From NCBI GenBank assembly GCA_009668945.1, contig SBEH01000001.1, forward strand, positions 367,776-431,775: a stretch of 64,000 nucleotides of DNA. The letters are read 5' to 3'. Within the stretch, counting starts at the first letter, position 1, and each line of letters starts with the position of its first letter. A program made the position numbers and the translations under genes. Origin of the DNA: Actinomycetota bacterium. Lineage in GTDB: Bacteria > Actinomycetota > Coriobacteriia > Anaerosomatales > Anaerosomataceae. Positions 9,429 to 47,734 of this stretch are shown here, piece after piece. The notes under the pieces were generated by a model. It was given only the letters and a program-made list of their open reading frames with translations, searched no databases and was not told the DNA's origin.

Positions 9429-9642
9429 ACGGATCGCCACCTCTTCTTCGGCACTTGCATGTCGAAAGAGCCCCCACAGGCGGTCCGGCCGCTTCCCGCT
9501 GTCCCCTGGCGAGAAATGAAGAACCGGCCGAACTCGATCAGCCGGTTGCGCCACTGGCTCCCCGTCACCCAGGCGCCCAAATGCAGGTGACGGTTCTATG
9601 CCGAAGATCTGACTACGGGCACTTCCAATCCACCCACAGTCA
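9429..9642 (-). promoter_or_regulatory. Long structured 5' leader of the multiheme cytochrome (unassigned)
   Basis: From the inferred transcription start (about 9642) to the ATG is about 214 nt. It holds a perfect 8-bp hairpin, CCGTCACC/GGTGACGG around a 16-nt loop (about 9565-9596). A second hairpin is AACCGGC/GCCGGTT with a 12-nt loop (9522-9547), enclosed by TGGCG...CGCCA. A G-rich stretch then leads to the ribosome site GAAGAAGAGG. The architecture is riboswitch-like. I could not match it to a cyclic-di-GMP (GEMM), SAM, TPP or cobalamin consensus, so function is left open. Confidence 0.5.
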
Positions 9643-42510: not shown

Positions 42511-42577
42511 CCCTTGAATGCGCTGCCACCGAGTCGTAGCCTCAGAACGTGAACAACGCCGACCTGGAGGAGCGAGA

Positions 42578-43537
42578 ATGCCGAACATCAACGCCTCGGT
42601 GGACGAGACCATCGGATCGACGCCGCTCGTCCGCCTGAACCGGCTGTCCGAGGGGCTCCCCGCCGCGGTCGCCGTGAAGCTCGAGTCCCGGAATCCCGGC
42701 GGCTCCGTCAAGGACCGCATCGGTCGCGCGATGATCGACGATGCCGAGGTTCGCGGGGTCATAGAGCGCGGCAAGTCCGTACTCGTAGAGCCCACCTCGG
42801 GCAACACCGGTATCGCGCTGGCGATGATAGGCGCCGCGCGAGGCTACCGGGTCATCCTCACCATGCCCGAATCGATGTCGATCGAGCGGCGCAAGCTGCT
42901 CGCCTCCTACGGCGCGGAGCTTATCCTGACTCCCAGGGCCGACGGAATGCGCGGCGCCGTCGAGGCCGCGGAGCGGATAGCCGCCGAGACCGACAGAGCG
43001 TTCATTCCGGCTCAGTTCGATAACCCTGCCAACCCCGCCATCCACTACGCCACCACCGGGCCGGAGATCGACGACGCGATCGGCCCCGAACGTCTCGGCG
43101 CATTCGTGGCAGGCGTGGGTACGGGAGGAACGATCTCCGGGGCGGGCCGCTACCTTCGCGAGCGTCACCCCGGCACACTGATCGTGGCCGTCGAGCCGGC
43201 GGAGTCGCCGATCATCACTCAGAGACTAGCAGGCGAGGATCTCACGCCCGCCGGTCACGGGATCCAGGGAATCGGTGCGAACTTCATCCCTTCGGTACTC
43301 GACCTAGAACTGCTCTCGGAGGTCGAGAGGGTGTCGGCGCCGGAGGCGATCGAGACCGCGCGTCGTGCCGCCGATGAGGAGGGGTTGTTCGTCGGCATAT
43401 CGTCAGGAGCGAACATCACAGCCGCGCTCCGTATCGCTGCTTGTCCCGAGCTCGCCGGCGGACTCGTAGTCACCGTGGCGCCGGACACCGGCGAGCGCTA
43501 CCTCTCGACCCCCCTCTGGGAAGGGTACGGTGAGTAG
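42578..43537 (+). CDS. cysK: Cysteine synthase (O-acetylserine sulfhydrylase)
   Basis: This 319 aa PLP enzyme makes cysteine from O-acetylserine and sulfide. The PLP Lys is K45 in GGSVKDRIG, followed by [11 protein letters not shown] (substrate loop) and [15 protein letters not shown] (phosphate loop). The ATG at 42578 follows GGAGGAGC. An in-frame ATG at 42518 lies 7-8 nt after the -10, where transcription would begin. A leaderless longer form with 20 extra N-terminal residues is possible but less likely. The Rrf2 regulator starts 2 bp after the stop. Confidence 0.95.
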
Positions 43538-43539
43538 AG

Positions 43540-43956
43540 ATGCGCGTGTCCCAGAGACTCGACTACACCCTCAGGATGCTCGTCGCGCTCGCCCGGCTAC
43601 CTGCGGGGACGACCATCGCCGCAGGTGATCTTGCCGAGACGCTCGGGCTGCCGCGTCGCTTCGGAGAGCAGCAGATGACCGCGCTTGCCAAGACCGGGCT
43701 GGTCGACTCGCGCCGCGGGACCGGCGGCGGGATCGCGCTGGCTCAGTCTGCTGCGCTGATCACGGTTCACGACATCGTGAGGGCTTTGCAGGGCGAGGCG
43801 CTGGACGTGCCGCGAGCCACGGGCCAGGCCACGTCCGAGTTCTGGGCGGCCGCTGCAAACGCCTTGGATGCCGCACTCGAGAAGACCACGATCGCCGACC
43901 TTGCCGCCCGGCAGGCGATTCTGGACGCGGAACGCGAACCCGTGTACTTCATCTGA
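43540..43956 (+). CDS. Rrf2 family regulator, CymR-like (no cysteine cluster)
   Basis: The protein has 138 aa. The winged HTH reads MRVSQRLDYTLRMLVALARLP..RRGTGGGIALAQ. It entirely lacks the Cys triad of IscR-type members, so it is of the type that senses a metabolite or protein partner. CymR of Firmicutes works with cysteine synthase CysK as co-repressor. This gene begins 2 bp after cysK, and the cysK promoter holds a matching inverted repeat, so a CymR-like circuit is the natural model. That is inference from context. Confidence 0.85.
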   Translation: MRVSQRLDYTLRMLVALARLPAGTTIAAGDLAETLGLPRRFGEQQMTALAKTGLVDSRRGTGGGIALAQSAALITVHDIVRALQGEALDVPRATGQATSEFWAAAANALDAALEKTTIADLAARQAILDAEREPVYFI

Positions 43957-44006
43957 TCGGCTCCGCACGGGGAGGCAACCCCGGTGCAGAGGTGCGGTTG
44001 GAGCGA

Positions 44007-44035
44007 TGGACGCGCATTTCCCGCGCTGATACAGT
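44007..44035 (+). promoter_or_regulatory. Promoter of the methionine leader and metY-metX-metW
   Basis: TGGACG (44007-44012), a 17-bp spacer and TACAGT (44030-44035). The predicted start is about 44042, giving a leader of some 210 nt before metY. The same -35 and spacing occur at the leuA-like promoter. Confidence 0.55.
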
Positions 44036-44099
44036 ACGGGCTCAACGTAGGGGACTTCCCCGCCGTTTCGGACTAGCGAAGGAGGTGAGACGAGGCACC

Positions 44100-44207
44100 A
44101 TGGCACGCCCTGTGTTCGTGATGGCGATGGACATGATGATGACCCAGCCCGGGTCTGCGCTCGCATGCGCGGAGTCCGGGCGGCTTCAGTACCCCGCGCT
44201 TCCGTAA
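44100..44207 (+). CDS. Methionine-rich leader peptide
   Basis: This small ORF has 35 codons, from ATG at 44100 to TAA at 44205-44207. It follows the ribosome site GGAGGTG (44081-44087), with a nearer GAGG. The peptide opens MARPVFVMAMDMMMT; six of its first 14 residues are Met (1, 8, 10, 12, 13, 14). Just beyond these codons are two stable hairpins, and 48 bp after its stop begins the methionine operon. This is the arrangement of a translated attenuator in which a shortage of Met-tRNA stalls the ribosome. No SAM riboswitch landmarks were found in the leader. Confidence 0.72.
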   Translation: MARPVFVMAMDMMMTQPGSALACAESGRLQYPALP

Positions 44208-44211
44208 GCGC
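44147..44211 (+). promoter_or_regulatory. Attenuator hairpins in the met leader
   Basis: Hairpin 1 pairs GCCCGG/CCGGGC and CTGCGC/GCGCGG around TCGCAT (44147-44181), beginning 5-30 nt after the Met codon run. Hairpin 2 pairs GCGCTT/AAGCGC around CCGT (44196-44211) and contains the leader stop. No T-run follows, so the effect may be on termination by other means or on access to the metY ribosome site. Confidence 0.55.
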
Positions 44212-44255
44212 CGGGCATCAGTCCGCTTCATCAAAGACACAGGAAATGAGGAGCC

Positions 44256-45554
44256 ATGAGCGCTTCGCCGCACCGCTTCGACACCCGCGCCGTCCACGGC
44301 GGCGCTACGCCGGATCCCACCACCGGCTCACGTGCCGTACCGATCTACCAGACGGTGGCGTACAACTTCAACGACGCCGACCACGCGGCCGATCTCTTCG
44401 GCCTGCGCGCCTTCGGCAACATCTACTCCCGGATCATGAACCCCACCAACGACGTGCTCGAGCAGCGCATCGCGGCGCTCGAGGGCGGAAGCGCGGCGCT
44501 GGCTGTCGCGTCAGGCCACGCTGCCGAGGTGCTAGGCCTGCTGAACGTGGCAGGCTCCGGCGATTCGATCGTCGCCTCCACTTCGCTTTACGGAGGCACC
44601 TGGAACATCTTCCTGCATACCTTCCGACGACTTGGGATCGAGGTCCGCTTCGTAGAGACGACCGACACGGCGGGCTTTGCCGCCGCATCGGATGACACCA
44701 CGAGGGCGTGGTTCGTGGAGACCATCGGCAACCCGCGCCTCGACGTGCCCGACATCGGCGGACTCGCCGAAGCCGGCCGCGCGCTGGGCATACCGCTGTT
44801 CGTCGACAACACGTTCGCCACGCCCTACCTGTGCCGTCCAATCGAGCACGGCGCTGCTGTGGTGATCGAGTCGCTCACGAAGTGGCTCGGCGGGCATGGC
44901 ACGTCGATCGGCGGCATCCTCGTCGACGGCGGCAATTTCGACTGGGGAACCGGCAGGCACCCCTTCTTCACCGAGCCTGACGACAGCTACCACGGTCTCA
45001 AGTTCTGGGACGTCTTCGGCGACTTCCCCGGGCTCGGCAACGTCGCCTTCGGCATCCGTGCGCGCGTCAACCTGCTGCGCGACCTCGGCGCGTCGCTCTC
45101 GCCCTTCAGTGCGCAGCAGTTCCTGCTAGGCGTGGAAACGCTCTCGCTTCGCGTTCAGCGCCACAGCGACAACGCACTCGCAGTCGCGAAGTATCTCGAG
45201 TCACATCCCAGGGTCGAGTGGGTCGCCTACCCGGGACTCGACTCACATCCCACCAGGGCCAACGCCGACAAGTACCTCGAGAATGGCTACGGCGGCGTGG
45301 TCGTATTCGGTGTGAAAGGCGGACTTGCGGCAGGCAAGACGCTCATCAACTCCGTCGAACTGTTCAGCCACCTCGCCAACGTGGGCGATGCCAAGTCGCT
45401 CATCATCCACCCCGCTTCGACGACGCACTCCCAGCTGTCCGCCGAGGAACTCGCGCGCGCGGGCATCAGCGAGGACTTCGTGCGGTTGTCGGTCGGCATC
45501 GAGAACGTTGAGGACATCATCGCTGACCTCGATAGAGCACTGGAGGCGGTCTAG
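44256..45554 (+). CDS. metY: O-acetylhomoserine sulfhydrylase (aminocarboxypropyltransferase)
   Basis: This 432 aa PLP enzyme of the Cys/Met metabolism family makes homocysteine directly from O-acetylhomoserine and sulfide. It has YSRIMNPTNDVLEQRIAALEGG (about 56-77), the cofactor loop SGHAAE, and the PLP-binding Lys in ESLTKWLGGHGT (about 208-211). The length of about 430 and the DSYHGLKFWDVFGD segment distinguish MetY from shorter cystathionine synthases. It heads the metY-metX-metW operon, so sulfide is fixed on carbon by direct sulfhydrylation. The start ATG has AGGAAATGAGGAG upstream. Confidence 0.95.
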   Translation: MSASPHRFDTRAVHGGATPDPTTGSRAVPIYQTVAYNFNDADHAADLFGLRAFGNIYSRIMNPTNDVLEQRIAALEGGSAALAVASGHAAEVLGLLNVAGSGDSIVASTSLYGGTWNIFLHTFRRLGIEVRFVETTDTAGFAAASDDTTRAWFVETIGNPRLDVPDIGGLAEAGRALGIPLFVDNTFATPYLCRPIEHGAAVVIESLTKWLGGHGTSIGGILVDGGNFDWGTGRHPFFTEPDDSYHGLKFWDVFGDFPGLGNVAFGIRARVNLLRDLGASLSPFSAQQFLLGVETLSLRVQRHSDNALAVAKYLESHPRVEWVAYPGLDSHPTRANADKYLENGYGGVVVFGVKGGLAAGKTLINSVELFSHLANVGDAKSLIIHPASTTHSQLSAEELARAGISEDFVRLSVGIENVEDIIADLDRALEAV

Positions 45555-45558
45555 GTCC

Positions 45559-46683
45559 ATGAGCGAAGCAAGCGGACCTCGGACTCTTCGAATCGAGGGG
45601 GCGTTCCGCCTGGCGGGCGGGCGCTCCCTTGAGGGGGTCGACGTCGCATACGAGACTTTCGGCACGCTTTCTCCGAATGGCGACAACGCCGTGCTTGTGT
45701 GTCATGCCCTGTCAGGCGATGCCCACGTCGCCACCGGACCAGGCCTCGACGGCGCAACATGTCCCGGTTGGTGGGACTCGCTCGTCGGTCCCGGGCTGGC
45801 GATCGATACGGCGCGCTACTTCGTCGTCTGCGCGAACGTACTCGGCGGCTGTTCGGGGACCACAGGCCCCGGCAGCATCGATCCGGAGACCGGCAACCGC
45901 TGGGGCCTCCGCTTCCCGCTCGTGACGATCGAGGACATGGTCGATGTGGAGGCGAGACTACTCGACGCGCTCGGAATCGAACGGCTGTTAGCAGTCGTCG
46001 GCGGGTCGATGGGCGGCATGCAGGCACTCGCGTGGGCCAGGAGGTATCCCGAACGTACTGACGCTGTGATCGCCGCGGCGACAACGTCTCGGCTAGGCGC
46101 CCAGGCGATCGCATTCAATGAGGTGGGACGATCGGCGATCATCGCCGATCCGAGATTCGCCGGCGGTGACTACGCGCCCGACGCCCAGCCCGCCGACGGC
46201 CTGGCCATCGCCCGGATGGTCGGCCACATCACGTACCTGTCCCAGGACGGCATGCGCGAGAAGTTCGGCCGAAGGCTCCGCGACCGAGAGGATCACGCGT
46301 TCGACTTCGTGAGCGAATTCGAAGTCGAGAGCTACCTTGCGTATCAAGGGCGCCGCTTCGTCGAGCGATTCGATGCGGACACGTATCTCTACATGACCAA
46401 GGCGATGGACTACTTCGACTGGCAGCCACCCGCCGGAACGGACATGCCGCGGTTCCTCGTGACGTCTTTCACCTCGGACTGGCTTTTCCCCACCGCCCAG
46501 GCGCGTGAAATCGTCCGCGCGCTGCTGTCGCGCGGAGCCGAGCTCACATTCGCAGAGATCGACAGTCCTTATGGGCATGACGCATTCCTGCTCGAGACCG
46601 AGCAGCAGGGCGCGCTGATTGGAGCATTCCTGGAGCGGATACTTGCCGATCGGAACCGTTGCGCAGAGAGGAGGGTGTCGTGA
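45559..46683 (+). CDS. metX: Homoserine O-acetyltransferase
   Basis: MetX makes the O-acetylhomoserine used by MetY. This 374 aa alpha/beta hydrolase has the nucleophile Ser in VGGSMGGMQAL (about 150), the Asp in SDWLFP (about 307) and the His in GHDAF (about 339). Other family segments are CHALSGDAHV and FVVCANVLGGCSGTTGP. The ATG at 45559 lies 4 bp after the metY stop, with GGAGGCGG before it. Its TGA overlaps the metW GTG. Confidence 0.95.
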   Translation: MSEASGPRTLRIEGAFRLAGGRSLEGVDVAYETFGTLSPNGDNAVLVCHALSGDAHVATGPGLDGATCPGWWDSLVGPGLAIDTARYFVVCANVLGGCSGTTGPGSIDPETGNRWGLRFPLVTIEDMVDVEARLLDALGIERLLAVVGGSMGGMQALAWARRYPERTDAVIAAATTSRLGAQAIAFNEVGRSAIIADPRFAGGDYAPDAQPADGLAIARMVGHITYLSQDGMREKFGRRLRDREDHAFDFVSEFEVESYLAYQGRRFVERFDADTYLYMTKAMDYFDWQPPAGTDMPRFLVTSFTSDWLFPTAQAREIVRALLSRGAELTFAEIDSPYGHDAFLLETEQQGALIGAFLERILADRNRCAERRVS

Positions 46684-47297
46684 CAGCCGCCGAGGCGCTA
46701 CGCGCCGACTTGCGCCTGCTAGCGGACTTCGTCCCCCCGGGCGCGCGCGTGCTGGACCTGGGCTGCGGTGACGGCGCGCTGCTAGCGTTCCTGCGCGACG
46801 AACGTGGCTGCGCCGTGCGGGGAATCGAGATCTCGCCACAGGGCGTCCTCGGCTGCGTTCGGAGGGGAATCCCGGTGATCCAGGCCAACCTCGACGAAGG
46901 CCTTCGAGACATCCCTGACGATTCGTTCGACGTTGTGGTCCTTTCGCAGACTCTCCAGGAGGTACGGCACCTGCGGCCGCTCATCGCCGAGACCGCGCGC
47001 GTAGGCAGGCGCGCGATCATCTCGTATCCGAACTTCGGCCTGCTGTCCGCCCGAATCCGGCTCGGGATCTTCGGCCGCATGCCGGTATCCGATGCGCTGC
47101 CATACCAGTGGTACGACACACCCAATGTGCACTACACGACAATCCGGGACTTCCGGCTTCTAGCGCAGCAAGCCGGATTGGAGATCGAGCGCGAGGTGGC
47201 GCTACGCCTTCGCGGCGACGCGGTAGCGCGCGTGCACTTGTTGCCAAACCTGCGCGCCGAACTCGCCGTGACGATGCTTCGGCGTCCAAACGAATGA
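46680..47297 (+). CDS. metW: Methionine biosynthesis protein MetW
   Basis: This 205 aa Rossmann methyltransferase-fold protein has the SAM-loop VLDLGCGDGALLAFL (about 26-40) and the characteristic MetW segments GIEISPQGVLGCV, SQTLQEV and PYQWYDTPNVHYTTIRDF. MetW partners MetX, raising its activity, in many bacteria. It is translated from a GTG that overlaps the metX stop (GTGA), with GAGAGGAGGG upstream. It ends the methionine operon; the copper module begins 90 bp later. Confidence 0.92.
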   Translation: MTAAEALRADLRLLADFVPPGARVLDLGCGDGALLAFLRDERGCAVRGIEISPQGVLGCVRRGIPVIQANLDEGLRDIPDDSFDVVVLSQTLQEVRHLRPLIAETARVGRRAIISYPNFGLLSARIRLGIFGRMPVSDALPYQWYDTPNVHYTTIRDFRLLAQQAGLEIEREVALRLRGDAVARVHLLPNLRAELAVTMLRRPNE

Positions 47298-47386: not shown

Positions 47387-47734
47387 ATGACCCGCGAGCT
47401 AGACATCGTGAAGATGCTTGCGGCTGCCATGGTGATGGTGGCGGTTCTCGGCGTTGCCACCCCGGTCTGTGCCATGCCCGACTGCGGCGACATGGCCGCC
47501 GGTCCGTGCTCCGACTTCACGCCGGCGTGCGACGACTGCCCGAAGACCGTCGCCATGAAGCACACCGACGACGATGCCGTCTCGGTTGCCGCACAGGCAC
47601 TCCCGGTGCCGGTCATGATCGGCACCGCACTGGCACTCGAGTCGCCGGATGTTGTCACCACGACGCTCACCGCGCCCGAGGCAACCGCCTCGCCGCCGCC
47701 ACTCGACCCACTCGGGGTCCGCCTCACGGTCTAG
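47387..47734 (+). CDS. Small secreted Cys/Met protein at the head of the copper module
   Basis: The protein has 115 aa. A signal peptide (about 8-29, MLAAAMVMVAVLGVATPVCA) precedes MPDCGDMAAGPCSDFTPACDDCP (Cys at about 33, 41, 48 and 51), HT, acids, and a hydrophobic Pro-rich tail. I recognise no family. The clustered Cys, Met and His and its place before a copper exporter, cupredoxin and CopA suggest a small copper-binding or sensing protein. It starts at ATG 47387, with a modest ribosome site. An inverted repeat TGCCA-N5-TGGCA lies upstream (47319-47333). About 80 bp separate it from the next gene. Confidence 0.65.
   Translation: MTRELDIVKMLAAAMVMVAVLGVATPVCAMPDCGDMAAGPCSDFTPACDDCPKTVAMKHTDDDAVSVAAQALPVPVMIGTALALESPDVVTTTLTAPEATASPPPLDPLGVRLTV

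Follow-up and report, generated by a model that had tools for sequence, protein, structure and literature searches.

The window, by which we mean the whole stretch of 64,000 nucleotides analysed, comes from a 1.9 Mb genome of the order Anaerosomatales (G000) and contains a short methionine-rich open reading frame (ORF) located between an rrf2-type regulator gene (43540–43956) and the rightwards-transcribed genes metY, metX and metW (Table 1). A preliminary description of this region, made without database searches, had proposed a 35-codon ORF with its own ribosome site and six Met codons among the first 14, three of them in a row, with the methionine operon metY-metX-metW beginning 48 bp downstream. 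These points hold: Met is encoded at leader codons 1, 8, 10, 12, 13 and 14, the leader stop codon and the metY start are separated by 48 nt, and the three genes are identified by curated models. The extent given for the ORF (44100–44211) is corrected, its end being at 44207. The claim that strong hairpins directly follow the ORF holds only in part; the strongest (H1) is within the ORF, and the second (H2) contains the stop codon. The distance from the Shine-Dalgarno (SD)-like sequence to the leader start, ~12 nt, is rather long, yet similar in relatives. The signs that the ORF is translated come only from sequence (the invariant GGAGG of the SD, in-frame insertions and deletions and, in the metN group described below, TANNNT followed after 7 nt by ATG), and there are no ribosome data.

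Table 1. Features of the methionine leader and downstream genes (window coordinates).
Feature	Coordinates	Strand	Basis
SD-like sequence of leader ORF, AGGAGGTG	44080..44087	+	Read from sequence; GGAGG invariant in 28/28 aligned relatives
Leader ORF, 35 codons, MARPVFVMAMDMMMTQPGSALACAESGRLQYPALP; stop TAA at 44205–44207	44100..44207	+	Frame and Met run conserved in 29 metY loci
P0 5′ strand, the leader codons preceding and including the Met run	44108..44146	+	Spacer complementarity; own-versus-other permutation
Met-codon run, ATG GCG ATG GAC ATG ATG ATG	44121..44141	+	4–6 Met codons (mean 5.6) per 10 codons, 29/29 loci
Hairpin H1 (GCCCGGG...CCGGGC), within the ORF, immediately 3′ of the Met codons	44147..44181	+	Folding z; conserved basal helix; compensated inner stem
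Hairpin H2 (CCCCGCGCTT-CCGT-AAGCGCCGGG), includes the leader stop codon	44192..44215	+	Similar position in most metY loci; compensatory pairs
P0 3′ strand, spacer up to the metY ribosome site	44213..44243	+	Complementarity to leader; in most loci, paired end ~18–23 nt 5′ of metY start
metY, O-acetylhomoserine sulfhydrylase; first controlled gene (control inferred)	44256..45554	+	TIGR01326, 645 bits (cut-off 495)
metX, homoserine O-acetyltransferase	45562..46683	+	NF001209, 483 bits (cut-off 331)
metW	46659..47297	+	TIGR02081, 235 bits (cut-off 189.5)

Several other features of the window are located nearby or elsewhere. A cysK gene and the Rrf2/CymR-like regulator gene (42518–43956) lie directly 5′ of the methionine leader, an arrangement also present at loci L003, L015 and L030, and between rrf2 and the leader there is a G+C-rich self-complementary stretch (43957–44050; CGCACGGGGAGGCAACCCCGGTGCAGAGGTGCGG). 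A small putative exported protein containing Met and Cys is encoded after metW (47387–47734), and a c-di-GMP-II riboswitch (61.9 bits) is located on the minus strand at 9531–9614. The sequence CATGGC at the leader start (44099–44104) is complementary to GCCATG at the metY start (44254–44259); the corresponding CATGG/CCATG pair recurs in most relatives, perhaps by chance via a shared ACCATG context.

Searches for MetY give matches in 32 of 61 genomes, with a close metY in 31 of them, and readable upstream DNA is available for 29 metY loci within Anaerosomatales, an order of the class Coriobacteriia. All 29 contain the leader ORF, the Met run and H1, and the presence of a Met-rich leader ORF before metY is therefore not a matter of chance. 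In each, the in-frame Met-rich ORF ends with ...MMMT[QRW]PGS... or a close variant, the Met codons tallied in Table 1 being those in the ten codons that precede T-x-P-G, and insertions and deletions among the leaders keep the reading frame. Of 69 genomes examined in the order, 29 contain a 20-base motif, ATGATGATGACNNRNCCNGG, in single copy in all but one. The motif lies at metY at every locus checked and is absent from the 327 other genomes searched in the class; a 23-base form occurs once in the window's genome. The motif-to-metY distance is similar across loci (115–135 nt, with a single outlier of 166 nt), and metX and metW are downstream of metY wherever the locus is long enough, metW not being seen within the available stretch at L029. 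A first, looser DNA pattern gave mostly chance matches outside the order and was discarded. One genome has a second metY-metX-metW copy (L183; G014:C14), which likewise bears the leader.

H1 folds with a mean z of −3.9 over the 29 metY loci (the value for L006, where H1 was misanchored, is to be disregarded). Its basal helix is kept in nearly all alignment cells, and its inner stem differs in sequence between genomes and still folds, with compensation. The last Met codon is immediately 5′ of the H1 5′ arm in the metY and metN groups alike, and in metY loci this arm is formed by CCC (28/29) and GGG (29/29) codons that are fixed 3′ of the Met run. The C-termini of the leader peptides vary. Because CCC GGG is fixed while the residue preceding this Pro-Gly changes (Q, R or W in metY leaders, K or S in metN leaders), and because L029 has a stop codon directly after PGS and nevertheless retains H1, the part of the leader 3′ of the Met run is kept as RNA. 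In a covariance-model-fitted alignment of metY matches, compensatory change is seen at each of the 10 pairs of H2; this figure leans towards structure because the alignment was fitted to that structure. RNAalifold applied to plain MAFFT alignments underestimates the leader structure because the stems shift register.

In folded leaders the Met codons pair with the spacer between H2 and metY, forming a long-range helix, P0. Compared with shuffled spacers, P0 has a mean z of −1.9 in the metY group (14 of 26 loci below −1.645; control 0.02) and −2.4 in the metN group (15 of 19 below −1.645; control +0.4); the test is weak when restricted to 14 nt of leader (mean z −1.0) and clear once the whole Met region is included. 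When spacers are swapped between genomes, the codons just 5′ of the Met run pair at −13.9 kcal/mol with their own spacer versus −9.9 kcal/mol with those of other genomes, and none of 20,000 permutations reaches the own value. Near relatives were thinned for this comparison (22 of 26 kept) and relatedness was otherwise ignored. Control segments 60 and 75 nt 5′ of H1, which start outside the leader ORF, show no own-spacer preference (p 0.95 and 0.76). The residues 5′ of the Met run vary, changing together with their P0 partners: GTTCGTG/CACGAAC in L011 corresponds by compensatory change to GTTTGTG/CACAAAC in L016, and P0 pairs elsewhere are GCATTCGC/GCGAATGC (L006), TTCGGGTT/AACCCGAA (L019) and CCTGTG/CACAGG (the window). 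Conservation of the helix is asymmetric, with the Met codons near-invariant and their partner strand variable, which points to selection on the codons.

Two covariance models, R1 built from metY leaders only and R2 built only from metN leaders of other Coriobacteriia families, describe the spread of the element. R1 detects homologous loci in two other families of the class, where the leader (e.g. the ORF MITTAAHITMMMVMEMPSPGHFAMPRNHRVHGETGRLR) precedes an ABC ATPase gene whose product is closest to MetN (TIGR02314, 315 bits), below the cut-off and with a match spanning only the first 240 of 343 model positions. At L268 this gene is followed by MetI- and MetQ/NlpA-type genes that score below the NCBIfam cut-offs and above those of Pfam. 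Among the 30 top-ranking metN loci in the class, 20 bear the leader (L207 is the same locus as L188, whose ORF is clear), and two more have a divergent form. In a third family, L220 and L225 have divergent leaders before metN (HTMDMMMPKPG and HITVMCMPKPG) that are not scored by R2. Five loci of one family (L258, L260, L262, L264 and L266) have metN leaders with only 2–3 internal Met codons in the same H1 context, QMPKPGH; weakened sensing or the use of other regulatory codons is possible there. H1 and H2 of the metN group covary, with 12 pairs changed on both sides versus 4.8 in shuffles, and H2 does so at 8 of 10 pairs. A TANNNT box, which resembles a −10 site, is located exactly 13 nt 5′ of the first tested in-frame ATG in 18 of 20 metN leaders (background rate 0.4%), and at L211 it is seen by eye before the second ATG. 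This spacing suggests that the transcripts are leaderless, without start-site data, and the apparently leaderless metN leaders are L197–L216 and L257–L269 (other Coriobacteriia).

R2 in turn finds all 31 metY loci offered, and the window's methionine leader stands out as its best match (42.3 bits, E 3.5e-10; next match 10.5 bits). It matches 103 of 392 Coriobacteriia genomes, and one metN leader (L269) is in a genome of the window's own genus; among 296 genomes sampled from the phylum, none outside the class gives a match. Every R2 match that was checked precedes metY or metN, as do all 12 loci from weaker or odd R2 matches that were inspected besides one known locus. R1 matches outside the metN and metY groups (L191–L195; E about 2e-4 to 6e-4) were rejected as, by eye, ordinary coding sequence, weaker ones being outside that inspection. 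That R1 finds metN leaders and R2 finds metY leaders supports the homology of the two groups, with two unrelated methionine gene sets sharing one signal. Lack of Met-codon enrichment or of small-ORF conservation in relatives would have refuted the idea of a translated sensor of Met-tRNA charging put forward in the preliminary description; the idea passes, given the 29/29 metY loci, the in-frame insertions and deletions and the homologous metN leaders. Paired alternatives, also sought in related leaders, are found as H1, H2 and the covarying P0. Conservation and paired alternatives thus support such a sensor; a response to methionine is not shown.

The conserved ORF, its Met codons, H1, H2, P0 with compensatory change and the link to methionine genes are established by sequence comparison. 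The likely interpretation is that the leader is a cis-acting sensor of Met-tRNA charging that acts via ribosome stalling and raises expression of the methionine genes in shortage, mainly via translation initiation; stalling, direction and translational output are all inferred, there being no expression, ribosome-profiling or start-site data. In such a scheme a ribosome would translate the short ORF. The Met codons of this ORF make up one strand of P0; the opposite strand is the spacer, which stops next to the ribosome site of the first methionine gene. With Met-tRNA well charged the ribosome would pass, P0, H1 and H2 would form or re-form, and expression would be low. With charged Met-tRNA scarce it would wait on the Met codons, where it would cover the base of H1 together with the P0 5′ strand; the spacer would then stay open and the methionine genes would be expressed. 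The direction, on in shortage, is inferred because of the genes present and known systems of the same design.

When a stalled ribosome is represented by a mask (30-nt footprint), structure predictions give a spacer opening of 0.45–0.59 in place of 0.19, and H1 and P0 are lost, indicating alternative pairings that could be selected by ribosome position; in metY leaders a mask at the last Met codon is predicted to abolish H1 and to leave segment 2 free for downstream pairing. Sequestration of the metY SD itself is not supported, its predicted pairing state changing little on stalling (0.43 to 0.44–0.48); only the upstream flank opens. A translational output is favoured because P0, of all helices involving the Met codons, has the best support and reaches as far as the ribosome site of the following gene, and because a U-tract terminator is absent from the window. 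The earlier proposal of attenuator hairpins is only partly right, since that terminator is absent and P0 beside the metY ribosome site points at least equally to translational control. Further points against the preferred reading are that a shortage of Met also limits initiator tRNA, which complicates Met-codon sensing, and that some metN leaders of one family (L258, L260 and L262) keep just 2–3 internal Met codons. A bolder reading, towards which we lean by a modest margin, is that the leaders constitute a new class-wide family in the Coriobacteriia that governs methionine synthesis (metY-metX-metW) as well as uptake (metN with its transporter genes). In this reading one strand of P0 consists of the Met codons themselves and the other guards the ribosome site downstream, so that a waiting ribosome would open the helix directly.

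The most serious rival, above all for the metN leaders, is transcription attenuation by the same Met-codon sensor, with H2 (3:4) as terminator, H1 as 1:2, and a 2:3 antiterminator formed on stalling. The order of segments matches the classical scheme, H2 covaries strongly in the metN group (at the 8 of 10 pairs given above), and in several genomes of this group H2 is followed by CGCCTTCTT, CGCCTTTTT or CGCCTTCTTTTT, with CTTCTT or TTTTT tails. The 2:3 pairing is present in 85.8% of alignment cells in the metN group, and the predicted loss of H1 on masking the last Met codon of metY leaders would free segment 2. Against it, a scan for canonical promoters and terminators finds neither at the window leader, which has no U-tract and no terminator-like site, and only a subset of the metN leaders has U-rich tails; covariation specific to 2:3 is absent in the metN group, and in the metY group this pairing does not exceed shuffles; and the covarying P0 is left unexplained. 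We judge this rival to be less likely than not, though far from remote.

Nascent-peptide arrest, in which the Met run with T/P-x-P-G would sense methionine or S-adenosylmethionine (SAM) in the exit tunnel in the manner of TnaC or SpeFL, is unlikely. M-[TP]-x-P-G follows the last Met in almost all leaders, but Pro and Gly are fixed at the codon level (CCC 28/29, GGG 29/29) while the preceding residue varies, which fits the RNA arm of H1, and the residues 5′ of the Met run vary with their P0 partners. A metabolite-binding riboswitch (an aptamer for SAM, S-adenosylhomocysteine (SAH) or methionine) that overlaps an ORF by chance would account for a conserved structured RNA before methionine genes; we regard it as very improbable, as there is no Rfam match at gathering or permissive thresholds nor, apart from the coding run and the arms of the hairpins, any conserved loop core, and frame, SD and Met codons are all conserved. 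Met-rich peptides can bind copper(I), and a functional Met-rich small protein unrelated to metY control, e.g. a copper-binding one, is all but ruled out by the L029 stop right after PGS with H1 kept, the variable C-termini, the RNA covariation and the association with metY or metN at every locus checked.

The preferred reading, a Met-codon sensor with mainly translational output, has no described counterpart for methionine that we could find. The usual regulators of methionine genes are SAM riboswitches, T-boxes or repressors. Rfam searches at gathering and permissive thresholds, with the SAM-I, SAM/SAH riboswitch and T-box models included, give no family matching the leader, and the earlier statements that it lacks a SAM or T-box RNA and that no standard family is known for it both hold; the SAM-I-like element of this genome is instead located before metK only (L001 1501–1632, G000:C16; RF00162, 40.8 bits versus a cut-off of 44.4). 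With this element and the methionine leader, the window's genome would have two different sensors for one pathway. A 2005 survey of actinobacterial amino-acid genes reported leader peptides for Trp, Cys and Leu/Ilv and no conserved structures for other pathways (PMC1262725), and later actinobacterial leader peptides are those of ilvB (PMC10272879, PMC13236596). No Met leader peptide is described in that part of the literature which could be searched, and while we found no earlier report of methionine as the signal of a ribosome-read leader, priority is not certain. Because there is neither an Rfam match nor a described Met leader peptide, we consider the leader a new form of amino-acid leader-peptide control. 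Sensing through Met codons is a conceptual oddity, as Met also feeds translation initiation; the system thus probes how translation can report on the supply of an amino acid that initiation itself requires. The presence of the leader in about a quarter of the sampled Coriobacteriia genomes (103/392) provides ~100 natural variants on which a translational output could be tested against a transcriptional one.

The leader shares with the classical attenuators of the trp, his, leu, ilv, thr and phe operons a short ORF, rich in codons for the pathway product, before the operon and alternative RNA pairings. It differs in that Met is the amino acid sensed, that the window lacks a U-tract terminator, and that a long covarying helix joins the ORF to the spacer beside the following ribosome site. 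Without that terminator, which the translational type does not need, we do not class it as a transcription attenuator of the classical kind. The leaderless poly-cysteine uORFs of mycobacteria (predicted by Seliverstov et al. 2005, PMC1262725; Canestrari et al. 2020, cited in PMC13236596) are likewise actinobacterial amino-acid-run uORFs with no clear terminator, and the metN leaders also look leaderless; however, the leader described here has methionine rather than cysteine, conserved hairpins and a long-range helix, and in the window version an SD. The Corynebacterium ilvB-II uORF motif (PMC10272879) and the M. tuberculosis ilvB1 attenuator (PMC13236596) also combine an actinobacterial uORF, regulatory codons and RNA structure, but respond to branched-chain amino acids by transcription attenuation, ilvB1 with a U-tract terminator. 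SAM-I riboswitches and Met T-boxes control the same kind of genes in other bacteria, whereas the methionine leader matches neither in sequence or structure and its signal would be read via translation. In the translational attenuation of ermC and cat, the helix hiding the downstream ribosome site is opened by a ribosome that has stalled in the leader ORF. The same opening by a stalled ribosome is proposed for the methionine leader, with the differences that the signal would be amino-acid supply rather than an antibiotic and that the helix abuts the ribosome site without covering it.
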